Positions 397-27,568 of a DNA stretch of 48,322 nt are shown here, in pieces. Numbering within the stretch: position 1 is the stretch's first letter; every line of letters begins with the position of its first letter. The notes beneath the pieces are model-generated. The model searched no databases. It saw only the letters and a program-made list of their open reading frames with translations, and was not told the origin of the DNA. Position numbers and translations under genes: made by a program. Origin of the DNA: Candidatus Raymondbacteria bacterium RIFOXYA2_FULL_49_16 (GTDB lineage: Bacteria > Fibrobacterota > OXYB2-FULL-49-7 > XYB2-FULL-49-35); NCBI GenBank assembly GCA_001789205.1, contig MFYT01000049.1, positions 1 to 48,322 of the forward strand, given 5' to 3'.

Positions 397-442
397 GCAG
401 TCAAACGGTTTATTGGATATTACTATTTGTCAGGAATTCAAT

Positions 443-1683: not shown

Positions 1684-1692
1684 GAGAAAACA

Positions 1693-3453: not shown

Positions 3454-3468
3454 AAAAGGAGCCTGTAT

Positions 3469-3912: not shown

Positions 3913-3941
3913 TTTAATCGATAAAAAAGAAGGAGGAGCGG

Positions 3942-4415: not shown

Positions 4416-4426
4416 AGGTGGTTTTT

Positions 4427-5611: not shown

Positions 5612-5662
5612 TTTCTATCAGGCATAGCTTGTCATTCCCTCAATTATATATTTTACTTTATC

Positions 5663-7962: not shown

Positions 7963-8047
7963 TTTCCGGTAACACAATGTTTCCCCAAGATAATCCTTTT
8001 AGGTTATTCCCCCAGGCTTCGCTTATTAGTATACTATACGTTGTAAA

Positions 8048-8476: not shown

Positions 8477-8494
8477 AACAACAGGACAGACACC

Positions 8495-10310: not shown

Positions 10311-10464
10311 AACACAACTCTCCACAAAATAATTGTATATTATTCCTAATGGAATCGCTGCATTCGGGAGTATTGTGAACAGACGGTTTTTTACTGCGGG
10401 AACTGCTCTTTGTCTTACATCCCTCGCTTTTTCCCGGAAAATACGCATGAAAGGAGGTTCAGCC

Positions 10465-11313
10465 ATGGTCCAGGATGTTTTTCCCTGCAATGGAGCTGGC
10501 CGCTGGTTTCCGGCCGACAAGGCGGGACTCCAGAGCGTGGTGGATAATTTTCTCGCACAGGCAAAGGTGCAATCGCATAATCCGCTTGCCGTTGTCGCCC
10601 CGCACGCTGGATACGCTTATTCAGGCGCTGGCGCAGGCCTTGCCTATAAGGCCCTGGCAGGTCACGAGGACATACGCCGCGTTATCATTATTGGGCCAAG
10701 CCATAGCGCGAGTTTCGAGGGCGTATCGGTTTTATCGGGTTTCAAAAACTATGAAACGCCATTGGGTCTCATTAAAATAGATACGGATGCTTGCGAGGCG
10801 CTGCTCGATAAGAAGCATTTCTGCTACAAAAAAGAAGCGCATGCTCCCGAACATTCGGTTGAAAACCAGATTCCCTTTATTCAGCGGGCATTGCCGGGCG
10901 CGTCAATTGTTCCCTGTGTTGCGGGTTTTCTTTTTCCCGATGATTTTGCCGAAATTGGAGCAACTTTTCGTACAATGCTCGATGGAAAGACCGTGATTGC
11001 GGTCAGTTCTGATTTTACCCACTATGGGGCCTCTTTCGGGTATGTGCCTTTTGCAGGCGATATTAGGAACAATCTCGAAAAACTCGACGGCAAGGCCATA
11101 CAGAAGATAGAGGCTGCTGACACTGCGGGATTCCTCGAATATATTGAAAAAACCGGAGCAACAATCTGCGGCAGAATTGCCATTGGCGTCATGTGCAGCG
11201 CAATCGCGGGCATGGCAAAAGGTAGATTATTGAAATACTACACTTCGTCAGACGACTCAGGCGACTTTTCACACACTGTATGCTATGCGTCCATTGTGAT
11301 GGAGAAGGTATGA
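10465..11313 (+). CDS. amrB: AmmeMemoRadiSam system protein B (MEMO1 family)
   Basis: 282 residues from ATG 10465, chosen because GGAGG at 10453-10457 is correctly spaced and the length fits the family. Hallmarks are APHAGYAYSGAGAG, IIGPSHSASFEG, the segment HAPEHSVENQIPF and SSDFTHYGASFGY, whose His, Asp and Cys residues form the dioxygenase-like metal site of MEMO proteins. The biological role of the bacterial protein is unsettled; it co-occurs with AMMECR1 and a radical SAM protein. The AMMECR1 gene follows, but no radical SAM gene is in the window. An in-frame GTG at 10375 would add MNRRFFTAGTALCLTSLAFS, which looks like a twin-arginine signal, so export cannot be excluded. Confidence 0.88.
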   Translation: MVQDVFPCNGAGRWFPADKAGLQSVVDNFLAQAKVQSHNPLAVVAPHAGYAYSGAGAGLAYKALAGHEDIRRVIIIGPSHSASFEGVSVLSGFKNYETPLGLIKIDTDACEALLDKKHFCYKKEAHAPEHSVENQIPFIQRALPGASIVPCVAGFLFPDDFAEIGATFRTMLDGKTVIAVSSDFTHYGASFGYVPFAGDIRNNLEKLDGKAIQKIEAADTAGFLEYIEKTGATICGRIAIGVMCSAIAGMAKGRLLKYYTSSDDSGDFSHTVCYASIVMEKV

Positions 11314-11394
11314 TCCCCCCTAAGAAACTGCTCTACTTGCACGCCCCCCTTAGCAAGGGGGGAAAGCCGTCGTGTAGAAATTTTCGGGGGGATC
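11312..11394. repeat. Nested inverted repeat, copy 1
   Basis: The outer arms are GATCCCCCC (11312-11320) and GGGGGGATC (11386-11394). Inside is a second hairpin, CCCCCCTT (11344-11351) against AAGGGGGG (11355-11362). The element begins inside the stop codon of the MEMO-family gene. A very similar copy lies 13 bases downstream, with GCCGTCG shared after the inner hairpin, so the two are a tandem pair of one repeat type. It could act as a terminator or RNA-stability element; no transposase is nearby. Confidence 0.75.
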
Positions 11395-11407
11395 GTGATG
11401 CAGCCCT

Positions 11408-11489
11408 GATCCCCCCAAGGGATTCCTCCGTATCGACACCCCCCTTAACAAGGGGGGGGGGCCGTCGAATGGTTGGTTTCGGGGGGATC
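11408..11489. repeat. Nested inverted repeat, copy 2
   Basis: Outer arms GATCCCCCC (11408-11416) and GGGGGGATC (11481-11489) enclose an inner hairpin, CCCCCCTT (11439-11446) against a long AAGGGG tract. It shares the inner hairpin, the following GCCGTCG and the TTTCGGGGGGATCG end with copy 1. The stretch of G at 11452-11461 is longer than in copy 1. The space between this element and the AMMECR1 gene is short, so the pair makes up nearly the whole intergenic region. Confidence 0.75.
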
Positions 11490-11531
11490 GTGGCGATCCT
11501 CTTTTCCCTTTCCTTTGCCAAGGAGCCTGCT

Positions 11532-12077
11532 ATGGAGCTTTCCAAAGAAGAAAAAACCCTCTTGCTGCATATGGCGCGCGCATCGTTTGAATCATGCGTA
11601 AAACGGGAAAAAATGCCGGCCTTCACTGTCCTGGACAAGTTCAAGCAGGAGTGCGGCGCCTTTGTGACGCTCAAGGAACAAGGTGAATTGCGCGGTTGCA
11701 TTGGCCATATCTATCCGGTCTCACCCCTTTTCCAGACAGTGACGGAAATGGCAGAGGCTGCGGCGCTCCACGATACCCGCTTTTCCCCAGTGGAGCCATC
11801 TGAACTAAAGACAATTGACATTGAAATCTCAGTTTTAACACCGCCTGTCCAGATACCGTCGCTCAAGGAATTCGTGATAGGTAAACATGGGATAATAATT
11901 AATCTGCGTGGAAGGCAGGCTGTTTTTCTTCCTCAGGTTGCGGTTGAACAGAAATGGGATAAAGACACTACACTCAGACATTTATGCATTAAAGCAGGGT
12001 TGCCTGCAGATGCCTATCTGGACAAGACAATGGAATTCAGGGTTTTTGAGGCAATTGTGTTTGGAGAAACAGAATAG
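11532..12077 (+). CDS. amrA: AmmeMemoRadiSam system protein A (AMMECR1 family)
   Basis: 181 residues from ATG 11532, preceded by AAGGAG. The family signature LRGCIGHIYP is present, with CGAFVTLKEQGE before it, AALHDTRFSPV after it and DIEISVLTPP further on. This is the AMMECR1/PH0010 fold with a conserved Cys in the LRGCIG motif. The function is unknown, but pairing with the MEMO-family gene upstream is the standard arrangement. An in-frame upstream extension through the palindromic repeats exists and would give a hydrophobic stretch (IVAILFSLSFA) just before Met; it is probably non-coding. The gene ends 8 bases from a convergent STAS gene. Confidence 0.88.
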   Translation: MELSKEEKTLLLHMARASFESCVKREKMPAFTVLDKFKQECGAFVTLKEQGELRGCIGHIYPVSPLFQTVTEMAEAAALHDTRFSPVEPSELKTIDIEISVLTPPVQIPSLKEFVIGKHGIIINLRGRQAVFLPQVAVEQKWDKDTTLRHLCIKAGLPADAYLDKTMEFRVFEAIVFGETE

Positions 12078-12635: not shown

Positions 12636-12647
12636 ACATGTACTTAT

Positions 12648-12721
12648 GTGCCCATAGCTCAATTGGATAGAGTATCTGGCTACGGACCAGAAGGCTCGGG
12701 GTTCGACTCCCTGTGGGCACG
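12648..12721 (+). tRNA. tRNA-Arg (anticodon ACG)
   Basis: The cloverleaf folds completely by eye: acceptor GTGCCCA/TGGGCAC, D arm beginning GCTC, anticodon stem TCTGG/CCAGA with loop CTACGGA (anticodon ACG, normally with A34 modified to inosine to read CGU/CGC/CGA), and T arm CGGGG-TTCGACT-CCCTG. G at 12721 is the discriminator base. CCA is not encoded. A promoter-like sequence lies just upstream and a terminator just downstream, so it is a single-gene transcript. Confidence 0.97.
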
Positions 12722-12723
12722 TT

Positions 12724-12868: not shown

Positions 12869-14560
12869 TTGCGCGAAGAAGATCTGATTATTGATCCGGA
12901 CATGGAGGAAATTGTCCAGGGTTTTGTTATTGAGTCCACTGAGTATCTTGAACACCTGGACCAAGACCTGGTAAGTCTCGATGAAAATCCCGGCGACATG
13001 GAACTGGTTGGCAAGGTTTTCCGCGCCTTTCATACGCTCAAGGGTAATTCGCGCGCGCTCGGTTTCTTAGACATGGAGACAATGGTCCACCGGACCGAGG
13101 ACGTTATACGCAAGGTGCGGGACGGTGAAGCACGGGTAGTTCCCGCAATGATGGACGTTTTACTGGCCTCGGTCGATATGGTCAAGGCCCTGCTCAACGA
13201 TATTAGCGAGAAGAAAAAGCGGGAGCGCGACCTGGCGCCGCTTATTGCACAGCTTCAGGCGGTAAATGAAGACGGACCTGCGCCTGGAGCCGAACCTGCG
13301 GCCGCTGCGACTGAACCTTCGGTTGCTGCAGGAACCAGTACCGAGAAAAAGACCGCCGCACCCACCATCCGTGTCGATACGATCAAACTCGACAAACTTC
13401 TGAGCACAGCGGGCGAACTGGTGCTCAGCAAAAACCGGCTTCTTAACTTTACCCAGCGCCTGGAGCAGGGGCAGGCTGTTGCAAGTCCGGAAGAATTCCT
13501 CAATGAAATAAACGCGCAGCTTGGTTTTTTGGTCTCTGACATGCAGGTCGATGTCATGTCAACGCGCATGCAGCCCATTAGCCGCGTTTTCAGCAAATAC
13601 CCGCGCGTGGTTCGCGACCTTGGACGCGAAACCGGCAAAGAGATCGAACTGGTCATTACTGGCCAGGAGACGGAACTCGACAATGCTATTATCGAGGAGA
13701 TCGGCGATCCACTTATCCATATGGTGCGCAACTCGTGCGACCATGGCGTTGAAATGCCCGATGCGCGCGTTGCCGCAGGCAAAAACCCAAAGGGTCGTGT
13801 TGAACTTTCCGCCTATTACGAGGGCAATTTTGCCATTATCTCCATCCGCGACGATGGCAAAGGCATTGATACCGAGGTCATTAAACGCAAAGCCATTGAA
13901 AAGAAGCTTATTTCACCGGAGCAGGCCGCGACCATGGCAAAGAGCGACATCCTTAACCTCATTTTCCTTCCCGGTTTTTCCACTGCTGAAAAGGTGACCG
14001 CTGTCTCGGGACGCGGCGTGGGCATGGATGTGGTTAAAAACAGCATAGGAAAACTCAAGGGCATTATTGAGATGGACTCTGAAAAAGGCAAAGGCACGGT
14101 GCTCAAGATCAAGCTTCCCCTTACCCTTGCCTCCATGATAGGTCTGGAGATTGAAGTGGGCGGCATCCGGTATCTTGTGCCCCAGGAGGCCATTGTCGAA
14201 ATTGTGCGTCTGCCAGCTTCCGGATACGCGGCCGCGGTCAAGGACAAGACTTTTCTTTTCCGGGGAAACTATACCTTGCCCGTGGTCAATGTGCGGGACA
14301 TGCTTATTAATGGAAACAAGAACGCAGCGCCGGTACAGCAGGGATATCTTATAGTTACCAGTGAGGTTGAAAAGCGGACCGGACTTCTGGTCGACAATGT
14401 GCTTCAGCAGCATGAAGTGGTGGTCAAACCGCTGGGAAAATATCTCTCCCGGTTTCATCTCAGCGAGATTAATGGCGCCACTATCATGGGCGACGGCTCA
14501 ATTGAACTGGTGATTAACGCCAGTGTCATCGCTGGTTTTCAGACGCAGGGGGCCGCATGA
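12869..14560 (+). CDS. cheA: Chemotaxis histidine kinase CheA
   Basis: 563 residues from TTG 12869, selected because AGAGGAG (12856-12862) is 6 bases upstream. P1/HPt at about 10-120 carries FRAFHTLKGNSRALG with phosphorylated H55. A short acidic/Ala-rich linker replaces a P2 domain. The dimerisation domain begins around IRVDTIKLDKLLSTAGELV; P4 HATPase has LIHMVRNSCDHGVE, DDGKGID, FLPGFSTAEKVTAVSGRGVGMDVV; P5 is the CheW-like domain at the C-terminus. No receiver is fused. It would be a cytosolic kinase coupled to chemoreceptors through CheW. It opens an eight-gene operon, and its stop overlaps the CheW start. No cheR, cheB, cheD or cheC lies in the window. Confidence 0.95.
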   Translation: MREEDLIIDPDMEEIVQGFVIESTEYLEHLDQDLVSLDENPGDMELVGKVFRAFHTLKGNSRALGFLDMETMVHRTEDVIRKVRDGEARVVPAMMDVLLASVDMVKALLNDISEKKKRERDLAPLIAQLQAVNEDGPAPGAEPAAAATEPSVAAGTSTEKKTAAPTIRVDTIKLDKLLSTAGELVLSKNRLLNFTQRLEQGQAVASPEEFLNEINAQLGFLVSDMQVDVMSTRMQPISRVFSKYPRVVRDLGRETGKEIELVITGQETELDNAIIEEIGDPLIHMVRNSCDHGVEMPDARVAAGKNPKGRVELSAYYEGNFAIISIRDDGKGIDTEVIKRKAIEKKLISPEQAATMAKSDILNLIFLPGFSTAEKVTAVSGRGVGMDVVKNSIGKLKGIIEMDSEKGKGTVLKIKLPLTLASMIGLEIEVGGIRYLVPQEAIVEIVRLPASGYAAAVKDKTFLFRGNYTLPVVNVRDMLINGNKNAAPVQQGYLIVTSEVEKRTGLLVDNVLQQHEVVVKPLGKYLSRFHLSEINGATIMGDGSIELVINASVIAGFQTQGAA

Positions 14561-14988
14561 ACGGGAATGGGAACAGCCAATATCTGGGCTGCGCCATCAA
14601 TGGTTTTCCAGTGGCAATACCCGTGGCAAACGTGCAGGAGGTCTTTGAAACGCGGTTCCTCGCAAAGGTGCCCAAGTGTCCGGCATTCATCGCCGGGCTC
14701 GTTAATATCAGGGGCGCTATAGTACCGGTACTCGACCTCTGGCAGGTTGAACGCGAAGGCGCGGACCTGTTTACCATGGCCGTGCTTTCTACCGCGGAGG
14801 GAAACGTGGGTCTGCTTATCAGCCGGCTTGACGACCTGGTGCGTTTTACCCGCATTGGCCCGGCGGACGCGCTGCCGTCGGAGCTTGCGGTGGCGCCCTT
14901 TTCCGGCGCGGGCCTGGACGAATCGGGAAAAATGTATTTTGTGCTTGACGCGGAACAATGTATTGCCGGCACAATCCCTAGGGAATAA
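14557..14988 (+). CDS. cheW: Chemotaxis coupling protein CheW
   Basis: 143 residues made up entirely of a CheW domain. QYLGCAINGFPVAIPVANVQEV at the start and PAFIAGLVNIRGAIVPVLDL in the centre are the standard signatures (the latter the N-I-R-G-x-I-x-P-V-x-D motif). ATG overlaps the cheA stop as ATGA, indicating translational coupling. It bridges chemoreceptors to CheA at the inner face of the membrane. Confidence 0.95.
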   Translation: MNGNGNSQYLGCAINGFPVAIPVANVQEVFETRFLAKVPKCPAFIAGLVNIRGAIVPVLDLWQVEREGADLFTMAVLSTAEGNVGLLISRLDDLVRFTRIGPADALPSELAVAPFSGAGLDESGKMYFVLDAEQCIAGTIPRE

Positions 14989-15001
14989 AGGCGGTTTTAT
15001 T

Positions 15002-16264
15002 ATGATCATGTACCGTGAAAAAAACAGGAAGTTTCTCGCGGTTTTCCTTGTGTGCGCCACGGCCATTGCGGTGGTCACATGGACACTGAGCGAAAAATTC
15101 ATTGGCGGAGGCGTTCTGGCCCTGGCGGTCAATCTGGCGGTTGCCCTGGGTATAGCCTTTCTTTTTGAACGCTATCTCGAGAGTATGCTCAATCGGTCCA
15201 TTGATTTCATTATGGAAAAAATCGCCCGTGTTGCCGAAGGCGACCTTACCCAGCGCTTCAAGGAAGACCCGGATGACTGTCTTCCCTACGGGCTTTCGTT
15301 CCATCTCGAGGAAATGATGCGCTCGTTCCGCGAAAACGTAGGCGGCTTGTGGAAATCCTCGGTCCAGTTGTCGCGACAGCTCTCGCAGTTCATCGGCGAT
15401 ATACAGGAGGCGCTCCGTGAATTCAGGGCTGAGGTGGAGTATCTTACCAATATTGTCCGTAATTTCGAGGCAGTACGTATTGAGACGCTTGAAGTGGCCA
15501 AGCAGGTGGCAGGCCTCAAGGTGAACGTGGCCCACGACTCCGGGGTCATGGGGCAGTCGCTTCAGGTGACGCAGAACATGCAGGAAGAAATAGACAGAAA
15601 CTGGGAACGGATCCGGGCGATCAGCGGCAATATCGAGGAAATTTACAAGCTTTCAGGTCATTACACGTCAATGCTTCACGAGTTTCAGGCGGTTTTTCAG
15701 GGGATCAAATCAGTGGGCAAGACCCTGGCCGAGATTTCAACCGAATCGAGTCTGATCAAGCTCAATGCTTCAATCGACGCGGCGAACGAACAAACAAGCG
15801 CCGAGAATTATACTAAAATAACCGAGGAGTTGCAGACCTTGCTTGGACGGTTGAACGACCTTGTCCAGGAGAGCAATGCGGTTTCGGCCATGGCAAAATA
15901 CCAACTGAGCGTGGTCTCCGGACGGCTTGAGGCGGGCGAGAAGAACCTGAAAATAGGTCTTGCCGATAATTCGCGTATCGACGATCTCATGCGCGCAATC
16001 AGCGAAAGCTGCAGGACTTCAGCGGGCAATTTCAGCGCGGTTTTCGACGATATAAAACGTATTGACGCGCTTATCGGGTCTGTTGACGGAAAAATCGGGG
16101 AATTTGGCCGTTCAATCAAGCTTTCAACCGATAATTTTGACAAACTCAAATCGAGCGCGCAGATGACGCTGCTCAAATTCAACCAGATCGAGGAAAAGGC
16201 GGGCTCAATCGGCAAAGGTCTTGATCAGCTCGATTCGTTTTCACAGCGTTTTAAAATCGGATAA
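15002..16264 (+). CDS. Degenerate chemoreceptor-like membrane protein
   Basis: 420 residues from ATG 15002 (AAAGGCGG 7 bases upstream; ATG 15008 is an alternative). Two membrane helices (about 11-28 and 37-57) are joined by a very short loop, so there is no external sensor domain. A HAMP-like segment (EKIARVAEGDLTQRFKED) follows, then a long helical domain. Where a chemoreceptor has the E-I-A-x-Q-T-N-L-L-A-L-N-A-A-I-E-A tip, this protein has LAEISTESSLIKLNASIDAA (about 240-260), and the trailing R-G-F-A-V-V-A segment is lost. It may scaffold or modulate the array rather than signal normally. It lies between cheW and a complete receptor gene. Confidence 0.78.
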   Translation: MIMYREKNRKFLAVFLVCATAIAVVTWTLSEKFIGGGVLALAVNLAVALGIAFLFERYLESMLNRSIDFIMEKIARVAEGDLTQRFKEDPDDCLPYGLSFHLEEMMRSFRENVGGLWKSSVQLSRQLSQFIGDIQEALREFRAEVEYLTNIVRNFEAVRIETLEVAKQVAGLKVNVAHDSGVMGQSLQVTQNMQEEIDRNWERIRAISGNIEEIYKLSGHYTSMLHEFQAVFQGIKSVGKTLAEISTESSLIKLNASIDAANEQTSAENYTKITEELQTLLGRLNDLVQESNAVSAMAKYQLSVVSGRLEAGEKNLKIGLADNSRIDDLMRAISESCRTSAGNFSAVFDDIKRIDALIGSVDGKIGEFGRSIKLSTDNFDKLKSSAQMTLLKFNQIEEKAGSIGKGLDQLDSFSQRFKIG

Positions 16265-16287
16265 CGGAAAAACAGGGAGAACATACC

Positions 16288-18144
16288 ATGCGGAAGAAAG
16301 GTCTGACAGAAGCAAAGGCAGGGCTGCTCAGGTCGCTTAAATTTAAGCTGATTCTGGTCAGTACGGGACTCATTCTTATCGCGGTCATCAGCCTTGCCTT
16401 CTTTTTTATTCAGCGGCAGGTGGTCCAGATAAAGGAACAGCTCATTAACCGGGGTGAAACCATTACCCGGCTCATGGCCTACAACGCGCGCTACGGGGTG
16501 CAAATAGGCGACAAGCCAATCCTCGATAAAATTATCGGCGGCGTCATGGACGATCCCGATGTGCTCTATTGCATCATAAGCGACCAGCGCGGCGGCATTA
16601 TTACCAGTTACAACCAGGACAGCGCAAATCTGGTTGTTATCAAACCCGCCTTTTCGACCCAGGAGCGCCATGCCATCGAATACACAAACGCGAATGGCAA
16701 AGGCATCATCAATCTTGCCATGCCCGTGGTGCTGGCCGCTGCCGCGGAGCAAAAAGAGGAGAAATCATCGGCGCTTGAGGAGGATTTTTTCAGCGATGAC
16801 GCTGACCTCATGGCCGGGTCAAACGCGCCTGAACCAGCGGTATCAAAGGACGCGGGCCAGAACAAGCGGGTCATTGGCGCGGTACAAGTGGGTATTACGC
16901 TCAGCAATATGAAAAAGGAGATCGCGGCATCCATACGCAAAACAGTCCTGTATAGCGCCCTTATTTTCGTTGTTGGTTTTGTACTCGCCTTTTGGATAGG
17001 CAGCGTGATTTCCGCGCCGCTCAAAAAAGTGGTCACCATTCTCAATGATATGTCCGAGGGCGAGGGAGACCTTTCCCAGCGTATTCATCTCAAGTCCAAC
17101 GACGAGGTGGGCGATTTGGCGAATGGTTTTAATACTTTTATGGACAAATTTCAAGAAGTCAAAAAAATATCGGTGTTTCTCAATGGTCTGGCCGACGGCG
17201 GCGGCGACCTTACCAAGCGGCTCAACATTGCGTCCCAGGACGAAATCGGCATGCTGGCAAAGGGCTTTGACCGGTTTACGGACAAACTGCACGACATAAT
17301 CAAGCAGGTCGCGGCGAACACGGAAAAAATATCAGCCGCCTCGCAGTCTGTTTCCGATACCATTATCAAGCTCGCGCGTGAAGTCGATGAAGTGGCCCAT
17401 CAGTCCACTGAAGTGGCTGATTCAACCGGAAAGATGTCGCACTCAATCGAACTCACTTCGCGCAATGTTTCTGACGTGAACGAACTTATGAATAAGACCG
17501 AGGTGGTGTCGAACAGCGGCGTGGATGTGGTGCACGAGACGAAAAACGGCATGGGTCAGATCGCCGAGACGATCACCGCATCGTCCGATATTGTGGGACG
17601 GCTGAATGAAAGTTCGCAGAAAATCGGCGACACCATCACGATCATCACTGAAATCGCGGACCAGACGAAACTCATCGCCATTAACGCCGCGATCGAGGCG
17701 TCACGCGTGGGCGCGCAGGGCAAGGGCTTTGCCGTGGTTGCCGAGGAAATCCGGCGCCTGGCCGCGCGTGTCACCAAGGCCACACAGGAGATTAGCCAGC
17801 GCATACGGGCCATTCAGGATGAATCGTTGCGAGTTGTGGAAGCCATGAAAAAGGGCCGTGACGAAGCAAACCGCGGACTCGAGCTCTCCAGCCGTTCGGA
17901 ACAGTCATTGGAAAACATTTCAACCTCTGTGCGTGACGCCAAAGGTCGCATCAGTCAGATCACTGTCGCGGCAAACGAACAGACTTCCACCATAGGCATT
18001 ATTTCACGGAATATTTCCAGTATTTCAGGATCGTCAAAGGAGAGTTCTGAGGGCGTGAGTAAAACAGCCCAGGCCATGCAGGAGCTCAACCGCGAGGTCC
18101 AGGAATTGCGGCAATTGGTGGGCCGTTTTGTCATAAACCGGTAG
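16288..18144 (+). CDS. Methyl-accepting chemotaxis protein
   Basis: 618 residues. TM1 at about 19-41, extracytoplasmic sensor region about 45-215, TM2 about 219-241. HAMP follows at 240-292, and a second HAMP-like unit (GGGDLTKRLNIASQDEIGML) runs to about 345. The signalling domain has an intact tip, EIADQTKLIAINAAIEASR, then GKGFAVVAEEIRRLA. The sensor region is like single-Cache receptors but is interrupted by an acidic insert with LEEDFFSDDADL (163-174), a motif also repeated in the large coiled-coil protein of the same operon. GGGAG precedes the ATG. It presumably feeds the CheA/CheW of this operon. Confidence 0.93.
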   Translation: MRKKGLTEAKAGLLRSLKFKLILVSTGLILIAVISLAFFFIQRQVVQIKEQLINRGETITRLMAYNARYGVQIGDKPILDKIIGGVMDDPDVLYCIISDQRGGIITSYNQDSANLVVIKPAFSTQERHAIEYTNANGKGIINLAMPVVLAAAAEQKEEKSSALEEDFFSDDADLMAGSNAPEPAVSKDAGQNKRVIGAVQVGITLSNMKKEIAASIRKTVLYSALIFVVGFVLAFWIGSVISAPLKKVVTILNDMSEGEGDLSQRIHLKSNDEVGDLANGFNTFMDKFQEVKKISVFLNGLADGGGDLTKRLNIASQDEIGMLAKGFDRFTDKLHDIIKQVAANTEKISAASQSVSDTIIKLAREVDEVAHQSTEVADSTGKMSHSIELTSRNVSDVNELMNKTEVVSNSGVDVVHETKNGMGQIAETITASSDIVGRLNESSQKIGDTITIITEIADQTKLIAINAAIEASRVGAQGKGFAVVAEEIRRLAARVTKATQEISQRIRAIQDESLRVVEAMKKGRDEANRGLELSSRSEQSLENISTSVRDAKGRISQITVAANEQTSTIGIISRNISSISGSSKESSEGVSKTAQAMQELNREVQELRQLVGRFVINR

Positions 18145-18162
18145 CTATAATATAGGATCAAT

Positions 18163-19404
18163 GTGCACATTATGGGCGTGAAGCATATCATGGCTTTGTT
18201 TTTTATTTTTCCCGCCATTGGTCTCTGCGCAAAACCAGCAGCACCCGACTCGGGAGAAACGTTCATGTATAATAAGCGTTTTTTTGAGGCCGCGACATGG
18301 TACAAGGCGCGTATCGACAAGGGCGGCAACGTATTTGACATGCATCGCGCCTACCAGGACGCCCTGTACGCTGGTAAAGATTCAATGGCCCTGCGTACGC
18401 TTGAACAGGCATATGCGGACCTTCACCGTGAAGCGCCGGACAATCAGGAATACACCTATTTGTACGCGCGCTGCCTTCCGTGCAGTACAGGCAAGAAGTA
18501 TTTTACCCAAGCGCTTGAAAAAGATTCCTGTTATGCTTGGGCAATGAACGGCATGGGTGCGTGCGCGTTTGAGTCCGCTGATTTTGAGAACGCCAAGACC
18601 TATTTTCTCAGGTCTATCCAATGCAATCCTGATTTTTATCTTGCGTATAATAATCTGGCCCTTGTTTATAAAGCTGAGGAGAACGAGCAAAAAACCAAGG
18701 CTGTTTATAAAAAAATGATAGCCAGGAACCGCAGGCAACCCCAGGGATACGAATGGATCGGCAATTTCTATCTCGAAAACAAAAACTTTAATGAAGCCAT
18801 ACAAGCCTATGAGAAATCAATACAATACGGCAATGATGGTCCGGGAGTTTATTTCAAACTCGGCTATGTGTCGTTTCAGCGCAAGCTTTACCAGAAAGCA
18901 ATTTCCGCCTACCAGAAAAGCATTGCCGCGGGAAACAGCACATACGAGGTTTATTATAACCTTGGCACTGTGCTTGAACTGACAAATTTTCCAGAGGAAG
19001 CGCTTGGGAACTATGAGAAAGCCTGCGCCACGGAAAAAAACTACCGGGTGCTTTATGCCATGGGAAACTGCGCAGTGCTTCTGGGACTTTATTCAAAGGC
19101 CATTCAGTGTTATGGCGATTTTTTAAAGAGCGAACCGGAAAATACCGAGGCGCTCTTTGGCCTGGCAAACGCGTATCACATTAAAAAGGACTTCCAGGCC
19201 GCCATTGATATGTATCTGCGCATCATAGCCATAGACAAGAATTTCACCAAGGCGTACTACAACCTTGGCTCAATCTACGCCTATCATCTAAAAGACAAAA
19301 TAAAAATGGCGTTGTATTGGCAATCGGTTGTTTCACTTGCGCCGGGCAGTGATGACGCTGCTTTTGTATCGCGTGAAATGAAAAAAAACGGACTCGAACA
19401 ATAA
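18163..19404 (+). CDS. Secreted TPR-repeat protein
   Basis: 413 residues from GTG 18163 (AGGA 5 bases upstream; ATG 18172 is an alternative). A Sec-type signal peptide (MALFFIFPAIGLCAKPAA region) suggests periplasmic location; the Cys has no proper lipobox. About eight tetratricopeptide repeats run from residue 35 to the end, with clear units around NPDFYLAYNNLALVYKA and the NGPGVYF-, TYEVYYNLGTVLE- and FTKAYYNLGSIYA-type helices. TPRs are protein-binding scaffolds, so this could be an assembly factor for the envelope proteins encoded downstream. Spacing is 18 bases from the receptor gene and 10 bases to the next gene. Confidence 0.85.
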   Translation: MHIMGVKHIMALFFIFPAIGLCAKPAAPDSGETFMYNKRFFEAATWYKARIDKGGNVFDMHRAYQDALYAGKDSMALRTLEQAYADLHREAPDNQEYTYLYARCLPCSTGKKYFTQALEKDSCYAWAMNGMGACAFESADFENAKTYFLRSIQCNPDFYLAYNNLALVYKAEENEQKTKAVYKKMIARNRRQPQGYEWIGNFYLENKNFNEAIQAYEKSIQYGNDGPGVYFKLGYVSFQRKLYQKAISAYQKSIAAGNSTYEVYYNLGTVLELTNFPEEALGNYEKACATEKNYRVLYAMGNCAVLLGLYSKAIQCYGDFLKSEPENTEALFGLANAYHIKKDFQAAIDMYLRIIAIDKNFTKAYYNLGSIYAYHLKDKIKMALYWQSVVSLAPGSDDAAFVSREMKKNGLEQ

Positions 19405-19414
19405 CGGAGGCCCC

Positions 19415-20323
19415 ATGACCAGGTGTATTTTTCTGATAAACGCGCTGTCGCTGCTTTTTTTATCAACAGCGCTGCCGGCCGCTTCAATCGCCATACTCAT
19501 GCAGCAGGAAAAGGAGGGCGCCTTGAGCGAAGGGCCGCTTGCCGGATTCAAGGCCATTGCGGGTCCCGATGTCGCACAATTTGAAATAACCGACCCTGGA
19601 GCGGCACAAGCGATATGCGCAAAAATAAAGGCCTCGGGCGCCAAGGTGGTTTTTACCATTGGCAAGGACGCGACCAAAGCCGCCATGCAAGAATTGCCCG
19701 GCATGCCCATTGTCTATTGCATGGTCATGTCGCCCCAGGAAGACGGTATTGGCGGCGGGTCGGTGACCGGTGTCACCCTCGATATTCCCATGGTCAAACA
19801 GTTCACCTCATTCAAGTCAGTAGTGCCCAACCTCAAGAAAATCGGCATTGTCTACAGCGACGAAACCAGCGGCATTATTGCCAAGGAGATGAAGGCCGCT
19901 GCCGTAAAAACCGGGGTTACAGTGATTGAAAAGAAGGTGGCAAGCGACAAAGACGTGCCCAATGCCATTCGTGAGCTTAAAGGCAAGATCGACGGTCTGT
20001 ATCTGCCGCCGGACCGTACTGTGGCCAACAGGGACGCCTTTCAATTCATCGCGCTGTTCACGTTTGAAAACAATCTTCCCTTTATGGCGCCTGCCGGGCG
20101 CTTTGTAAAAAAAGGCGCCCTGGTCGCCCTTATGATCGATTTCGAGGAATTGGGAAAACAGGCGGCTGCCATGGCTAAGAAAATCGTTGGCGGCGCCTCG
20201 CCATCATCGATCCCCGTGGAGCCGCCGCAGGCCACCATCCTGGTGCTCAACCAAAAAACAGCACAGACCATTGGCATAAACATACCGCCAAGCCTGCTCG
20301 AGACAAGCCAGATAATCAAATAA
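19415..20323 (+). CDS. ABC-type substrate-binding protein (ABC_sub_bind / DUF534 family)
   Basis: 302 residues with a signal peptide (IFLINALSLLFLSTALPAAS). The body follows the ABC_sub_bind pattern: IAILMQ start, KVVFTIGKDATKAA, PIVYCMVMSPQ, a KKIGIVYSDETSG hinge, VKTGVTVIEKKVAS, and a C-terminal ALVALMIDFEELGKQAA. Such proteins are periplasmic ligand binders, often paired with a permease and ATPase. Neither is nearby; instead the gene lies in a chemosensory operon. It may therefore present a ligand to the chemoreceptor or sense it for the envelope machine (inference). CGGAGG precedes the ATG. Confidence 0.85.
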   Translation: MTRCIFLINALSLLFLSTALPAASIAILMQQEKEGALSEGPLAGFKAIAGPDVAQFEITDPGAAQAICAKIKASGAKVVFTIGKDATKAAMQELPGMPIVYCMVMSPQEDGIGGGSVTGVTLDIPMVKQFTSFKSVVPNLKKIGIVYSDETSGIIAKEMKAAAVKTGVTVIEKKVASDKDVPNAIRELKGKIDGLYLPPDRTVANRDAFQFIALFTFENNLPFMAPAGRFVKKGALVALMIDFEELGKQAAAMAKKIVGGASPSSIPVEPPQATILVLNQKTAQTIGINIPPSLLETSQIIK

Positions 20324-20333
20324 AACGGAACAC

Positions 20334-23300
20334 ATGGGTCATATCAGGTTTTATATATTGCTGTTCTGCTGGTTTTTAGTGCACCTCTGTGCGGCTGAAT
20401 CGGTCTATTATTGCGCAGTGCCAGGGCTCAAAGTTTATCTTAAACCGTCCATTTCCTCTGAACAGCTATTTACCGTTACCTTTGGACGGCCGCTCATTGT
20501 CATTGAAGGGTTCAACAACTGGCAAAAGGTCTTTTTAAGCAAGGACAGCGTTGGCTGGGTTTCCGCGGAAAAGATAGTGAGCAAGGAGGAGTTTAATCCT
20601 GAATATTTTTCAGATACATTCATCAGCGGCCAGATACAAAACTACCAGAAGGCCTCGGGGCAGCGGCCCGAACTGCGGCAACAGAAGAAACACACTGCGC
20701 CGCGTTTGCGCACAGAGGGGCTCATTGATTCAGGAACAGTTACGGGCTCAGACATTAACATCAGGACAAATCCCGATCTCAGGAGCACCGTAATAATTAA
20801 GGCGCGCCAAAACGCCCGGCTGAAGATCATCGGCAGCAAAAACGGCTGGTACCAGGTCCAGATAGACGAATCAAAGCAGGGATGGATCTATGCCGGCCTG
20901 GTACGGATTGACCAGCAAAGTGTGGAAATTCCAGCGCAGGCCAAGGTGGGCGTGGTGACAGGAACGCTTGCCTATGTCCGGTCGGGTCCTGATGCTACCA
21001 CGCCGGTCATGTGCCTGGCCCCGGGAAACACAGTGCTCGAAATTACCGAAGACGAAGGAACGTGGTGCGCGGTCAAAATCGATTCACTCAACCGCGGCTG
21101 GCTATTTGGGTCCCGTTTATCGCGCGGAGCGCCCGCAGCTCCGGCTGTGGCTGCCGGAGAGCCCCGGTTCAAATATATCAACTGCGATGCCATGAATTTC
21201 CGGGCCGGGCCTGGTACAGGGTATGCTAAAATTGGTTGCGACTGGTTTGGCAAATTCTACGAGGTATTGGGTGAAGAGAATGGCTGGTCGCGCGTTGTTC
21301 TGGGACAGAATCAGACTGGTTGGGCGCTCAGCTCGTTTTTGTCAACAGAGGAGGAGATCGCGGTGCTCCGTGTTCAGAAGGAACAGGAGGCCGAACCGGT
21401 TGTCATCAATGTCTCGGTTGTTGCCCCGGGCGCGGGCATTGTCGCGGTGCGCGACGGGCCTGCGTTCGATTGCCAGCGAATGGGCTTTGCGGCCCAGGGC
21501 GATACCCTTTTTGTGACCCAATATTTCGGAGACTGGTTGCAGGTACGCTCTGTTAACGGAGGTAAGGGATGGATTTACGGCCCCATGCTTCGCGCTGACC
21601 CGGTTTCCACTGACCAGTTTAAAGACCAACCCTTGCCCGCGACAATTCCCGCAAACCAGGAATACCAGTGGGGCGGCCAGGGTCCCGGGGGCCAGGTGTT
21701 TTCCCAGGCAACATTGGCCCGCCGCAATGAACAGGCTGTCCGTGTGCAGGAACAGCAGCGGCTTGCCGCTGAACAGGCGCGGCTCGATAGCGCAAAGGCC
21801 GCTTTTACCCTTGAACAGCAGCGCAGCCGCGACCAGCTCAACGCGCAGGTGAAACAGAAGGAAAACGAGGTTGCCCAACGGATCGACGCTGAACGCAGGC
21901 AGCGCGCAATGGTCATTGAGGAAGACCAGCGCAGAATGGCGCTGGCCGAGAAGGAAATTGATCGTAAAAAGCAGCTGTTGGCGGATGAGATTGCGCACAA
22001 GGAAAAACTGTGGAAGCTGGAGCAGGAAAACTGGCTGAACGAGCGGAAATACGCCATGGAACGGGTGCAGGCCCAGAAAGAGGCTGAATTGCTGCAAAAG
22101 CAGACGGCTCTCGAAAAGCAAAAGCAGGAGATCCAGGCCATTTCACTCGATATGGAGAAAAAGAACCTGGCGGCCAAACAGGAGATGGACCGCATGCGCC
22201 AGGCGCTTGAGGAGCAGATACAGCGTTTTGAGGCTGCTAAAAAAGAGGCTGTTGCGTTGAAGGAAAAAGAGAAATCGCTTGAGGACGAGGATTTTTTCTT
22301 CAATGACGAGGAGACCGGGCAGATTGAACGGAAAATGGATAATGCCGACACTGAGAAGCAAAAGGCGGAAAAAGCAATTTCCGGGGAAAAGGAAGGCCTG
22401 GCAAAACAAAAGGCCGAGCTTGAACTGTATCAGAAGGTGATGGAAAAGCGGCTGCAGGGCGAGCAGGAGAAGCTCGATGACCAGAAAAGCAAGCTTGCGG
22501 CCGAAGAGCTGAGGATACAAGCCGAGATAGAGCGCGTACGGCTTGAAATGGAGGCTGATAAAAAGAAGCGTACCGATGAATTCAACCGTACACTGCAACA
22601 GGAACAGGCGCAGAACGCCGCCCGGATTCAGGAGGCGCTGGCAAAGATGGAACGCGACGCTGCTGCGCTTGCAGGCAAGCAAAAGGCGGCTGAAGACAGT
22701 CTACGCCTGCTCGAAAAGGCCCTAAAAAAAGACGTGGAAGCCGAACGAGTGCGCATGGAGGCTGACCTCAACAGGCGTGCGGCCGAGGAAACGCGCAGGT
22801 ATGCGGACCAGAAGCAGGCCTTTGAGACCGAACAGGCGCGGCTTACACGCGAACTCACGGCAAAAGACCAGGCCCTTGCCCAGGCGCTTGAGAGGGAAAA
22901 AGAGCGCCTGCGGCAGGCCGCGGCCATGGGCAAGCAGGAGGAAGCCGCGAAACTGCGCGAAATGGAACGGGTGGCGCGCGATAAAGACCGCATCGACAGC
23001 ATGAATGCGGCAATTTCGCAGCGGGAGGAAAAGCTCAACAGGGAAGCTGAGCAAAAGCTCGCGGCGCGCGAGGCCGAACTTGCCCGCCAGTTGGAACAGG
23101 AGCGGAAAAAGAATGAAGACGCCATTGCCGCGGAACAGCTTCGATTGAACCGCGAGCAGGAAGCTTTTATCGCAAAACAGCGGCAGAACGAAGAAGCGCA
23201 GAAGAAAAAAGAGGAAGTCTGGCGCAAGGAGGAGGAGACGCGGCTCGAAAGCCAGCGTGGCGAGATCGAGGCGCTCAAAGAGAAGCAGCAGCGGGAATTT

Positions 23301-26072
23301 ATGGCCCAGCAGGAAAAGCTTGAGAAGCAGAAGGGCGAGGTTTTGGCCATTGCGCGCGAAATGGAGGAGAAAAACAAAAAAGCGCAGGAGGAAATTGCCG
23401 CAATGAAAGCTGCCATGGAAGCTGAAATGAAGAAATTTGAGGAGGCCAAACAGCAGGAAGCCCGGCTGGTCAAACAGGAAGCCACAATGACTGCCGAGGA
23501 TTTCTTCTTTGACGACGAGGAGACCGAAGCGCTCGAAATTAAAATGGACGCGGTCGATTCGGTAAAGCAGGCGGCTGAAGAACAGATGAGCAGGGAAAAG
23601 GAGAAGATGGAGGAGCAGCGCAAGGCGCTTGAGACAGAACAGAAGACCCTTGCCTTGCACATGGAGCAAAAGCAGAAATCGCTTGACACGGAACGCCAGT
23701 CTCTGCAGAAAAAGCAGGAGGAAGCCAACCGGAAACTTGAGGACAGGGTGCGGCAGCTTGAGGAACAAAATACTGAACGTGAAAAGATCTTTCAGGAAAA
23801 GATAAAAAGAGAAGAAGAGGCGCAGAAAAAACGGCTTGCCGAACAGGAAGCGCGGCTTGCGGCACAGCAGGAGGCGGCTGCCAAGCGTCAGCGTATTGCG
23901 GAAGACAGTCTCCGCGCAGTTGAGATGCAGCGCCGCGAGGCCCTGGACGCTTTGCGCAGGGATATTGAAACAGGAGTAGAGCGCCAGCTTGCTGCCGACA
24001 AAGAGCGCATGGAAAAAGAACGCATTGCGCTTGAACAGAAGCAGCAGGAGGCGCTGGCACGTGTTTCACAGCGCGAGCAGGCGCTTGCGGACCGGCAGGC
24101 AAAAGATGAACGCGACCTTGCGGACCGCCGTGTCCAGTTGGAGCGTCAGGTTGTGACTCTGGTGGCCGCGCGCATCAAAACAGTGGAGGATTCCCTCAGG
24201 CGTTTTTACGATGCGCGCGAAGCCGAACGTCAGCGCGAATACGCGAACATGCGCGCTGACCGCGCGCGGGCTGACAGCATGCGCACGGCCGCTGCGACCG
24301 AGGCTGAGCGTAAGCTTAGGGACAAGGAGCAGCAGCTGGCCAAAACCGAAGAGACAACGCGTAAAAAACTTGAACAGGAACGCCTCAAGGCCTTGCAGAA
24401 CGCAGCGGATGAAAACCGCAGACTCGACAGTCTCAAGGCGCGTCAGGAACGCGAAGCGGAACGCAAGCTGGCGGAAAGGGAAAAATACCTGGCCGACAAG
24501 GAGGCCGAGGCCCAGAAACAGCTTGAACAGCAGCGGAAGCAAGCGCTCAAGGCCATGGAGGACGATCGCAAACGCATAGAAAGCGAACGCGCGGCCTTGC
24601 TGAAACAGCAGCAGCTCATGGAGAACGAGCTCAAGGCAAAGCAGGACACCTGGAAAAAGGAGGAGGAGCAACGCCTCAAAGACCAGAAGAGCCAGCTCGA
24701 CAAACTGCAGGCCGAACAGCAGCGGGCGTTGTCGCAGCAGGAGAACAAGCTCGAAACCCAGCGTAAGGAAATGGACAAGCTGGCAAAGGACATGGAGGAG
24801 AAAAACCGCAAGGCCGAGGAGGAAATCACGCGCATGCGCGAATCGCTCGAAGCAGAGATTAAGAAATTTGACCAGGCAAAAGAAGAGGCGAACAAGCTCA
24901 AGGCGGCCGAAAAGACGATGAACGACGAGGATTTTTTCTTTGATGAGGATGAAACGGACAAGCTTGAGAACCGCATGAACGCCGCGGATTCCCTGAAAAA
25001 GGCGGCTGAGGCAGAAATTGCCAAGGAGCGCGACCGCCTGACTGAACAGAAAAGTTCGTTCGAGCGGCAGCAAAAAGAAATGGAAACGCGCATTGCCAGC
25101 GAGCAGCAAAAGCTTGAAGTGGAGCGGCGCCAGGCTGAGGAGCTCAAGAAAAAGGCCGAGATGGAAATGGCCCAAGCGCAGGTAAAGATGGAAGAGGAGA
25201 AAAAACGGCGTGAACAGGAATTCGCCGAACGATTGAAACGTGAAGAGCTAGAAAACAAGCTCAAAATGGAACAAGAACAGCGCCGGATTGAACAGGAACG
25301 CGCGCTTTTTGCCGAGCGCCAGAAGGCCATTGATGACAGTTTGACGCAGGTACGTTCGGCTGAGCTCAGGAAAATTGAACTCGAACGCGAGGCAACAAAA
25401 AAGAAGCTTGAGGAAGAGGCGCGTACCGAGGCAGCGCGCATTGAACAGGACCGTTTGGCCCTCGCGGTCCGGCAGCGCCAGGCGGAGGACAGCCTGCGCA
25501 GCGCAGAGGCTGTCTCGCGCCGCAAGCTGGACGAGGAACGCCAGGCCATTGCCCTCAGCCAAAAGGCCATGCAGGACAGTCTTGCGGCCCGGTTGGCAGG
25601 CGTGGAACAGGACCGGCAGCGGTTGCAGGACGAAAAAGAGCAGCTTCTCGCTGAAAGGGAACGGCTGCGCCAGGAGCGCGAGGCTTTTGTTGCGGAAAAG
25701 GCGCGTCAGGTCGTAGCCGCCAAGGAGGCCCAGCAGGCCTCGAGCAGCAGTGAAACATCGGGTCCGGCGCTCAAGACATCGCGTAATTTCAGTGAAATCT
25801 CACGCGTCCTTTCCCAGCGTGTTTCCAAGGTAATGGCTGCCTATGGTAAAATGCTCAAAGACACGCCGGGATTGAGCGGCAAAGTCACGCTTGGGTTTAC
25901 GATACAGACATCTGGTGAAATAGCGGACCTCAAAATCGTGGCCAACACGGTGAACAACGCTGACCTCGAGAAAATGATTCTCGAAGAATTCACTTCGTGT
26001 AAATTTGTGGCAATAGATCCTTCAGCCAAGCCCGCACCCATGACCTATCCGCTGCTTTTTTTCCCAAGGTAA
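20334..26072 (+). CDS. Giant secreted SH3/coiled-coil protein with AgmX/TonB-like C-terminus
   Basis: 1912 residues. A signal peptide (about 1-21) leads to five SH3b-like domains (about 25-85, 133-192, 202-265, 277-338, 352-417), recognisable by N/V-R-x-G-P and G-W-x-x-x-x-x-L motifs; such domains often bind peptidoglycan or proteins. Residues about 440-1800 are nearly unbroken Glu/Lys/Gln/Arg-rich coiled coil with A-E-D-S-L-R type punctuation. If fully helical it would span roughly 200 nm (1360 residues at 0.15 nm). Three copies of a 100-residue unit each contain EDFFF. The last about 85 residues (KMLKDTPGLSGKVTLGFTIQ onward) match the AgmX/PglI-TonB-like C-terminal fold known from Myxococcus gliding proteins. 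It is likely an envelope-spanning or surface structural protein tied to the chemosensory genes. Confidence 0.85.
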   Translation: MGHIRFYILLFCWFLVHLCAAESVYYCAVPGLKVYLKPSISSEQLFTVTFGRPLIVIEGFNNWQKVFLSKDSVGWVSAEKIVSKEEFNPEYFSDTFISGQIQNYQKASGQRPELRQQKKHTAPRLRTEGLIDSGTVTGSDINIRTNPDLRSTVIIKARQNARLKIIGSKNGWYQVQIDESKQGWIYAGLVRIDQQSVEIPAQAKVGVVTGTLAYVRSGPDATTPVMCLAPGNTVLEITEDEGTWCAVKIDSLNRGWLFGSRLSRGAPAAPAVAAGEPRFKYINCDAMNFRAGPGTGYAKIGCDWFGKFYEVLGEENGWSRVVLGQNQTGWALSSFLSTEEEIAVLRVQKEQEAEPVVINVSVVAPGAGIVAVRDGPAFDCQRMGFAAQGDTLFVTQYFGDWLQVRSVNGGKGWIYGPMLRADPVSTDQFKDQPLPATIPANQEYQWGGQGPGGQVFSQATLARRNEQAVRVQEQQRLAAEQARLDSAKAAFTLEQQRSRDQLNAQVKQKENEVAQRIDAERRQRAMVIEEDQRRMALAEKEIDRKKQLLADEIAHKEKLWKLEQENWLNERKYAMERVQAQKEAELLQKQTALEKQKQEIQAISLDMEKKNLAAKQEMDRMRQALEEQIQRFEAAKKEAVALKEKEKSLEDEDFFFNDEETGQIERKMDNADTEKQKAEKAISGEKEGLAKQKAELELYQKVMEKRLQGEQEKLDDQKSKLAAEELRIQAEIERVRLEMEADKKKRTDEFNRTLQQEQAQNAARIQEALAKMERDAAALAGKQKAAEDSLRLLEKALKKDVEAERVRMEADLNRRAAEETRRYADQKQAFETEQARLTRELTAKDQALAQALEREKERLRQAAAMGKQEEAAKLREMERVARDKDRIDSMNAAISQREEKLNREAEQKLAAREAELARQLEQERKKNEDAIAAEQLRLNREQEAFIAKQRQNEEAQKKKEEVWRKEEETRLESQRGEIEALKEKQQREFMAQQEKLEKQKGEVLAIAREMEEKNKKAQEEIAAMKAAMEAEMKKFEEAKQQEARLVKQEATMTAEDFFFDDEETEALEIKMDAVDSVKQAAEEQMSREKEKMEEQRKALETEQKTLALHMEQKQKSLDTERQSLQKKQEEANRKLEDRVRQLEEQNTEREKIFQEKIKREEEAQKKRLAEQEARLAAQQEAAAKRQRIAEDSLRAVEMQRREALDALRRDIETGVERQLAADKERMEKERIALEQKQQEALARVSQREQALADRQAKDERDLADRRVQLERQVVTLVAARIKTVEDSLRRFYDAREAERQREYANMRADRARADSMRTAAATEAERKLRDKEQQLAKTEETTRKKLEQERLKALQNAADENRRLDSLKARQEREAERKLAEREKYLADKEAEAQKQLEQQRKQALKAMEDDRKRIESERAALLKQQQLMENELKAKQDTWKKEEEQRLKDQKSQLDKLQAEQQRALSQQENKLETQRKEMDKLAKDMEEKNRKAEEEITRMRESLEAEIKKFDQAKEEANKLKAAEKTMNDEDFFFDEDETDKLENRMNAADSLKKAAEAEIAKERDRLTEQKSSFERQQKEMETRIASEQQKLEVERRQAEELKKKAEMEMAQAQVKMEEEKKRREQEFAERLKREELENKLKMEQEQRRIEQERALFAERQKAIDDSLTQVRSAELRKIELEREATKKKLEEEARTEAARIEQDRLALAVRQRQAEDSLRSAEAVSRRKLDEERQAIALSQKAMQDSLAARLAGVEQDRQRLQDEKEQLLAERERLRQEREAFVAEKARQVVAAKEAQQASSSSETSGPALKTSRNFSEISRVLSQRVSKVMAAYGKMLKDTPGLSGKVTLGFTIQTSGEIADLKIVANTVNNADLEKMILEEFTSCKFVAIDPSAKPAPMTYPLLFFPR
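22113..22412 (+). repeat. Coiled-coil internal repeat with EDFFF, copy 1
   Basis: About 100 codons beginning EKQKQEIQAISLDMEKKN. The codon for the first F of DEDFFFNDEE follows 177-180 bases into the unit. The same offset occurs in the two other copies at 23322 and 24753. Confidence 0.8.
23322..23621 (+). repeat. Coiled-coil internal repeat with EDFFF, copy 2
   Basis: Begins EKQKGEVLAIAREMEEKN, contains AEDFFFDDEETEALEIKMD, and is otherwise charged coiled coil. It starts 1209 bases after copy 1 and keeps the same internal spacing. Confidence 0.8.
24753..25052 (+). repeat. Coiled-coil internal repeat with EDFFF, copy 3
   Basis: Begins ETQRKEMDKLAKDMEEKN and contains NDEDFFFDEDETDKLENRMN. It starts 1431 bases after copy 2. 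The intervening coiled-coil segments differ in length, so the EDFFF units are better conserved than what lies between them. Confidence 0.8.
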
Positions 26073-26084
26073 GGGAGGCCTTTT

Positions 26085-27020
26085 GTGAAAAAACTGTCGC
26101 ATGTTCTGGCCTTTTTCCTGACCATGGCGGCCTTTGGGCAGGAAGCGCTGGTATTGGAAAAGGTCGAATTAAGCAGGGACGAGGCAAATCCCGAACTGGT
26201 GCAGGCCATTTTTACTTTTAACAGGGCGCCCGAGACCCTGCCGGTCTATGCCCGGACAAAGCCCGAACGCATCGTCCTCGATCTTGCGAATACGCGCCTT
26301 CTGGAGGGGATAAAGAGCTTTAAAAGCGATATTTTGCCGGTTGATAGCATAGCGATATTTGAGATCAGGGAAAAGGACGTTCAGGGCGCCAGGGCCGAGA
26401 TTTATTTAAAAGAGAGTGCCCATTATGTGGCTCACCAGATAGGAAACAGCATTCTGGTAACTTTTACCCCTGGTGATGTCAAAGATTCGCTCCTGCTTTT
26501 CAGGTCAGAGACTGCTGCGGATTCTCAGCAGGGGACTATTACTGGAGTCAAAGTATTGTCGCGCGAAAAAAGCATTCAGACAGAGGTGAGCTTTGCTTCG
26601 CTGCCCATGACTTCGTCCATATACATGCTTGAGTCGCCGCCTCGTATCATCATGGATTTTTACGGGGCATATATTGATAATGTTTTTGAAAAAAAGGTCA
26701 CCCTTTCACCCATTAAAAGTATTTCCGTGATAAAAAAAGATGTTGATCCGCCCTATGTGGGTGTTATTCTTCATCTTAAACGCATGGCGGCTTTTAAATA
26801 TCAGGAGCTTAACGATAAATTCCTGGTCACTATTCCTGTTGGCAAAGAAGGTATTGGGGCGGGAACAAAGAGACTCATTCTTCTAGGCGCTGGTATTGTT
26901 ATTACCGGCGGGGTTGCGGCCGGACTGCTGCTTGGAGGCGATGATGGAGGCGGGGGAAATCAGGGAACGCAGCCAACAGAAGGGGATCTTGGTGCTCCGC
27001 CGCCATTGCCGGGGAATTAG
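26085..27020 (+). CDS. AMIN-domain envelope protein with glycine-zipper helix
   Basis: 311 residues, GTG start with GGGAGG 6 bases upstream. After a signal peptide (to about residue 19) come two AMIN-like beta domains (about 24-130 and 150-250), each with the hallmark R-I-V-L-D-L or R-I-I-M-D-F strand. AMIN domains localise secretins, amidases and other envelope machines to peptidoglycan. Near the C-terminus a Gly-rich hydrophobic helix (LLGAGIVITGGVAAGLLLGG) could insert in a membrane, followed by an acidic/Gly/Pro tail. It is the last gene of the cheA operon and probably anchors or positions the coiled-coil protein encoded just before it. Confidence 0.82.
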   Translation: MKKLSHVLAFFLTMAAFGQEALVLEKVELSRDEANPELVQAIFTFNRAPETLPVYARTKPERIVLDLANTRLLEGIKSFKSDILPVDSIAIFEIREKDVQGARAEIYLKESAHYVAHQIGNSILVTFTPGDVKDSLLLFRSETAADSQQGTITGVKVLSREKSIQTEVSFASLPMTSSIYMLESPPRIIMDFYGAYIDNVFEKKVTLSPIKSISVIKKDVDPPYVGVILHLKRMAAFKYQELNDKFLVTIPVGKEGIGAGTKRLILLGAGIVITGGVAAGLLLGGDDGGGGNQGTQPTEGDLGAPPPLPGN

Positions 27021-27187: not shown

Positions 27188-27568
27188 CTACTCCGGCAGG
27201 TTAAACTTCGTCCTTAGATCAGTCACTTTTTGATTAAATAAAGTCTTGTCCAGCGGTTTTACCATATAGTCGTCGGCGCCGCTTTCAACAGCTTCCTGTA
27301 TACTTCGCGCATGATGTTCAACCGTGAGCATGATCACCGGGATATTCTTTGTTTTTTCGTTGTGCTTGATGGATCGCAGGCAGTCGAGACCGCTCAGCGC
27401 GCCCATGTGCCAATCGAGCAGAATAAGGTTCGGGTTCTCAGTTTCAAGAATATCGAGCGCTTTTTCCCCTGAATCAGCCAGAATAAGGTCTTTGTAGCCC
27501 ATGGCCACAAGGTCTTTCTGGATAATACTTCGCATGGTCTGCGAATCATCGACTACAAGGATCTTCAT
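27188..27568 (-). CDS. CheY-like response regulator
   Basis: 126 residues from the ATG at 27568, which gives the standard start MKILVVDDSQTMRSII; an upstream in-frame extension is not supported. The receiver is complete: D7/D8, phosphoacceptor D52 in LLDWHM, T of MLTVEHH and the Lys of MVKPLDK. The D-W-x-M context resembles CheY. It is encoded on the opposite strand, convergent with the cheA operon, and is the best candidate in the window for the phosphate receiver of that CheA. It has no output domain. Confidence 0.9.
   Translation of the reverse strand: MKILVVDDSQTMRSIIQKDLVAMGYKDLILADSGEKALDILETENPNLILLDWHMGALSGLDCLRSIKHNEKTKNIPVIMLTVEHHARSIQEAVESGADDYMVKPLDKTLFNQKVTDLRTKFNLPE

Follow-up and report, generated by a model that had tools for sequence, protein, structure and literature searches.

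A conserved Fibrobacterota operon suggests a chemosensory receptor through which the cell may monitor its own envelope

We wanted to understand what a chemosensory operon does with four secreted proteins of the cell envelope. Most chemosensory systems have been studied via their outputs, and here the conserved partners encoded together with the signalling core are periplasmic. The locus lies in a window, the whole stretch of 48,322 nucleotides that was analysed, and domains were called on it with Pfam and NCBIfam profiles at the family cut-offs. All eight open reading frames were confirmed on the + strand between positions 12869 and 27020, collinear and tightly packed in the order cheA, cheW, degenerate receptor, receptor, TPR, ABC-type binding protein, SH3/coiled-coil and AMIN. 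They are given below with the receiver gene that adjoins them.

12869..14560, + strand: cheA, 563 aa, with Hpt (P1), H-kinase_dim (P3), HATPase (P4) and CheW-like (P5) domains by Pfam
14557..14988, + strand: cheW, 143 aa, PF01584 at 61 bits
14978..16264, + strand: degenerate receptor with two N-terminal TM helices, a cytoplasmic coil and an altered signalling tip, LIKLNASIDAANE
16288..18144, + strand: methyl-accepting chemoreceptor (MCP) with periplasmic sCache_4, tandem HAMP and MCPsignal at 126 bits
18163..19404, + strand: secreted TPR protein, 413 aa, Pfam TPR, N-terminal hydrophobic segment
19415..20323, + strand: orphan periplasmic binding protein PF04392 (ABC_sub_bind), 302 aa, 129 bits (cut-off 25.9)
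20334..26072, + strand: secreted protein of 1912 aa with five SH3_3 stretches, a long coil and an AgmX/PglI-type C-terminus
26085..27020, + strand: AMIN protein, 311 aa, two AMIN-like domains, AMIN at 31.6 bits
27191..27568, - strand: stand-alone CheY-type receiver, convergent with the AMIN gene, Response_reg at 87 bits

The intergenic distances, in gene order, are -4, -11, +23, +18, +10, +10 and +12 bases, which bears out the eight same-direction genes with overlaps or gaps under 25 bases described in the sequence-only reading; counted from an internal ATG at 15002 as the start of the degenerate receptor, the distance of -11 would be about +13. Between a tRNA-Arg (12647-12722) and cheA lie, in this order, a hairpin resembling a terminator, an AT-rich stretch and a ribosome-binding-like site of the GAGG type, so that the operon could plausibly start here. 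Further upstream on the same strand, window positions 413-8860 hold a dense run of histidine kinases and receivers, and at 10333-12077 the Memo and AMMECR1 genes overlap, with a glycosyltransferase adjoining.

The signalling core has the parts of a CheA-type system, all over their Pfam cut-offs: a CheA with Hpt, ATPase and CheW-like domains, a CheW, and an MCP whose signalling domain is canonical with an intact tip. No P2 domain was found in the CheA product by Pfam. TM helices predicted at residues 21-39 and 223-241 of the MCP would place its sensor domain in the periplasm; the AlphaFold model of this sensor was unusable (mean pLDDT 41). The degenerate receptor has a receptor-like coiled coil that scores under the MCP cut-off (21.3 vs 34.6 bits), and its periplasmic domain is absent. 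The gene at 27191-27568, overlooked by the sequence-only reading, supplies the CheY-type output receiver. Pfam detected neither cheR, cheB, flagellar or pilus genes nor motor genes of the AglQRS/ExbB-TolQ type within the operon, and no pilus genes in the window. The earlier statement that cheR/cheB and flagellar or pilus genes are missing holds for the operon but not for the genome, where other che clusters carry CheB and CheR and where eight flagellin matches and five T2SSE-type ATPases over the cut-off (PilB/PilT/GspE-type) were found elsewhere. The adaptation enzymes CheR and CheB, encoded only outside this cluster, are not a universal requirement for the CheA-type class.

Whether such a gene arrangement is fortuitous can be judged from its relatives. 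A further Fibrobacterota genome (G021), belonging to another family, carries the complete eight-gene block with its gene order unchanged; its contig matches JANQEN010000206.1 of a Chitinivibrionales MAG of the lineage Fibrobacterota. Identity to G021 is 59% for CheA, 37% for CheW, 40% for the degenerate receptor, 70% for the MCP, 44% for the TPR protein, 56% for the PF04392 protein, 28% for the long protein (1239 aa in G021) and 34% for the AMIN protein. Since the order is identical, the linkage is conserved and the arrangement exceeds chance. Both the degenerate receptor and the sensor half of the MCP gave strong matches (hundreds of bits) in just 2 of the 168 phylum genomes, the source genome and G021. 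The block is absent from G001, a genome of the same order as the source; its AMIN-like match has unrelated genes around it, and its degenerate-receptor match is on a short contig, again beside unrelated genes. A scan of named genomes, reaching beyond the phylum, with two short exact peptide patterns returned G021 and HAMP-only matches. The linkage of che and envelope genes, on which the sequence-only reading depended, therefore survives in G021, the sole relative carrying the genes. In the same pair of genomes, DapA is 50% and DapB 44% identical, and the GC content of the operon follows each host; both indicate that the block is old or long resident and not freshly shared, and recent transfer was rejected as its source. 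We conclude that the chemosensory operon is real, conserved and unusual.

The TPR, PF04392, 1912-aa and AMIN proteins all carry N-terminal signal-peptide-like segments, and the compartments given here for the operon proteins are predictions based on such segments and on TM helices. The coil of the 1912-aa protein runs for about 1340 residues without proline. Its tail (residues 1820-1909) matched the AgmX/PglI profile NF033768 at 52.7 bits (cut-off 40), the GltG profile reached only 30 bits (cut-off 650), and no clear membrane anchor was seen in the protein beyond the signal peptide. SH3 and AMIN domains are families known to bind peptidoglycan or the wall. The AlphaFold model of the AMIN protein has two AMIN-like domains (mean pLDDT 65), and its Foldseek match to the PilQ chain of a type IVa pilus model (E 2.6e-7, low TM-score) would suit a wall-binding role, a pilus not being implied by the match alone. 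The C-terminus of this protein (window 26877-27017) holds a glycine-rich hydrophobic segment, then a conserved DLGxPPxLP tail.

On the output side, G021 has a receiver in the matching place and orientation downstream of its AMIN gene, 47% identical to ours, and a second receiver directly precedes its cheA. The G021 CheA (L036 15291-18347, - strand) has a CheX phosphatase domain at its N-terminus and three Hpt domains in tandem; such a kinase, with a CheY-P phosphatase-type domain built in, is unusual. As a CheY is conserved beside the operon and CheX is present in the G021 CheA, the output would most simply be a diffusible CheY. Another receiver, RR8495, was rejected as the cognate CheY, being 23-28% identical to the G021 receivers vs 47-49% for the 27191-27568 gene. 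The CheY target could be, among other candidates, a flagellar or pilus motor, to judge from the genes encoded elsewhere in the genome. Among Fibrobacterota, Chitinivibrionia have been reported to carry flagellar and chemotaxis genes, and the phylum as a whole type IV pilus genes (PMC4704652).

A short motif was found to be common to the MCP and the coil. The pattern [DE][DE]FFx[DN][DE], searched genome-wide as the DNA pattern GANGANTTYTTYNNNRAYGAN, has four matches in the 5.43-Mb genome, and all are inside the operon; the reversed control and the window shuffles gave 0 matches.

16780..16800, + strand: FF motif EDFFSDD, periplasmic loop of the receptor, residues about 164-170
22287..22307, + strand: FF motif EDFFFND, coil unit 1 of the 1912-aa protein
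23496..23516, + strand: FF motif EDFFFDD, coil unit 2 of the 1912-aa protein
24927..24947, + strand: FF motif EDFFFDE, coil unit 3 of the 1912-aa protein

The peptides are LEEDFFSDDAD in the receptor and LEDEDFFFNDEE in the coil. Conservation within the coil is highest in blocks about 100 residues long that have [DE]FFF at their centre; there are three such units here and two in G021. The receptor loop varies between the two genomes, except that L-E-x-x-F-F-x-D is kept; the G021 receptor has SEFFDDP at the aligned site, outside the strict pattern, and in G021 likewise the motif is common to receptor and coil. Scored with a matrix derived from nothing but the five coil copies, the two receptors ranked first and third among 171 other proteins examined. 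Whole-protein shuffles equalled the receptor scores 5 and 9 times in 3000, and when only the acidic receptor loop was shuffled, 0.1% and 1% of the trials did so. We defined the motif once the repeats had been noticed, and its conservation is that of two sequences in the two genomes carrying the operon. Because the acidity of the loop explains part of the score and the motif was defined post hoc, we take it as a strong lead for an interaction between receptor and coil, not as proof.

The PF04392 protein lies next to this coil gene. It is the single member of its family in the source genome as well as in G021, and no permease or ATPase partner is encoded in the operon. The best three solved relatives bind tyrosine, tryptophan and phenylalanine, and in CD0873 the selectivity positions are E263 and Y279 (PMC6816091). 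The operon protein has A227 and F243 at these positions, as read from the alignment with the numbering offset of 21 checked on Val-235/Pro-236, and is nearest to the phenylalanine binder. It thus resembles CD0873, VC_1101 and SP1069/TrpX in family and, for the phenylalanine binder, in selectivity positions, but differs from them in having no transporter partner and in the residue that follows the conserved binding-site Asp, an Arg replacing the conserved Asn in the proteins of both genomes. The combination of a putative phenylalanine-type pocket with Phe-rich motifs close by is suggestive. That the pocket accepts an internal peptide is conjecture, and a cleft built for free amino acids may refuse one.

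Altogether, we propose a chemosensory pathway in which the receptor takes its input from a periplasmic assembly of its own, with a strut-like sensor, a reading of the FF motif and a CheY output; we consider this reading about evenly balanced between right and wrong. The wall binding and the contacts that we infer would work as follows. The SH3 domains and the AMIN protein would anchor the assembly to peptidoglycan, and the long coil would be a strut bearing several docking units with the FF motif. As one continuous helix, the coil would reach up to about 200 nm, and it would therefore lie along or around the wall. The receptor would present the same FF motif in the loop of its periplasmic sensor domain, and a periplasmic reader, most likely the PF04392 or the TPR protein, would bind FF motifs. 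Strut and receptor would then compete for the reader, or the receptor would dock on the strut via the reader, so that the state of the wall, or a ligand in the binding protein, sets the amount of reader on the receptor. The degenerate receptor may be an array partner without a sensor of its own, acting with the receptor to control CheA, which would phosphorylate the neighbouring CheY for a cytoplasmic target, e.g. a flagellar or pilus motor. A more specific version, in which the array senses the giant strut directly, receptor and strut compete for one reader, and CheA/CheY read an envelope tension or length gauge, is tentative and on balance doubtful.

The operon could instead serve the chemotaxis towards a solute, with the PF04392 protein presenting the receptor with an aromatic amino acid or a comparable solute, much as maltose-binding protein acts on Tar; the TPR, coil and AMIN proteins would then do no more than position the complex. 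We regard this as rather unlikely. An orphan binding protein, alone of its family in both genomes and without an operon transporter, would fit such a role, as would the aromatic ligands of its solved relatives and the resemblance of A227/F243 to the phenylalanine binder. The Arg found in place of Asn in both genomes speaks against it, however, and it leaves unexplained the size of the coil, its conserved units and a motif that receptor and coil have in common and that is matched nowhere else in the genome.

It has also been proposed, in the sequence-only reading, that the envelope structure is itself the output, with the che core governing how a TPR-coil-AMIN structure for surface motility or adhesion is assembled or moves. 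What stands of this proposal is that a conserved operon couples a che core to an SH3/coiled-coil/AMIN module. Their conserved co-location, the AgmX/PglI tail and the AMIN match to PilQ agree with control of such a structure, but the four envelope proteins are predicted to be secreted and so cannot be direct targets of CheA, the operon lacks a motor gene, and the CheY that adjoins it in both genomes could act on flagella or pili. The tail had been taken to recall Myxococcus gliding. The AgmX-type domain occurs in 156 of the 168 phylum genomes, mostly in far shorter proteins, and is therefore uninformative on gliding; the lack of an operon motor and of a further membrane anchor weakens the resemblance as well. 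The sensor of the receptor is in the same compartment as the coil and shares a rare motif with it, so the envelope proteins fit more naturally as input, and we hold control of an envelope structure to be improbable. Finally, the genes might be co-transcribed yet functionally separate, with the FF motif a coincidence of acidic, disordered linkers. Across the phylum there is about one motif match per genome, in unrelated proteins at all loci inspected, and the receptor loop is acidic, as a coincidence would have it. Against this, the eight-gene order is kept between families at 28-70% identity, the genome has no other match, and FF is kept in both receptors within a variable loop, and we consider this reading very improbable.

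Among known systems, Pil-Chp has an MCP array that is thought to read an envelope-spanning structure, and the proposed periplasmic input resembles it in this respect. Contrary to Pil-Chp, the operon has no pilus genes and no CheR/CheB homologue, and its partners are SH3, coil, AMIN, TPR and PF04392 proteins. Like the Myxococcus Dif, Frz and Che3 clusters and the Geobacter alpha and beta clusters, it combines a CheA/CheW/receptor core with non-flagellar genes, the Geobacter beta cluster having been reported to affect the extracellular matrix (PMC2577667). It differs from these clusters by the absence of cheR/cheB, by a degenerate second receptor, by four secreted partners and by a motif that the receptor has in common with one of them. 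The resemblance to the Myxococcus Glt/AgmX/PglI proteins resides in the C-terminal domain over the NF033768 cut-off, a domain near-universal in the phylum and here part of a secreted protein without membrane anchor or operon motor. In YfiBNR, periplasmic sequestration via an aromatic anchor can gate an inner-membrane sensor (PMC4887326). A periplasmic protein that is sequestered between a partner anchored in the envelope and a sensor in the inner membrane is a possible parallel, used as a working analogy only and not as a family assignment, since by Pfam the operon has no YfiR, no YfiB (OmpA-like) and no GGDEF diguanylate cyclase and its output would be CheA/CheY. No published operon combining a chemoreceptor, CheA and a periplasmic coiled-coil/SH3 protein was found in our literature search.

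These results suggest that the operon may let the cell monitor the state of its own envelope. If so, receptor arrays would also serve to sense the structure or mechanics of the envelope, and the operon would be a compact candidate system in which to test it. The motif common to the receptor and one periplasmic partner has no match elsewhere in the genome, so defined peptides and point mutants can be used to take the sensing side apart. Downstream of the operon, window positions 32068-32559 (+) encode a small protein with a MerR-type helix-turn-helix and a PilZ-like domain, PilZ being just below the cut-off. Beyond it, a giant open reading frame of >5244 aa with Fn3 and Big_12 repeats (32591-48322, +) runs off the window; a giant open reading frame also lies beside the operon in G021 (L037 1-5173), with 44% identity over 202 aa.
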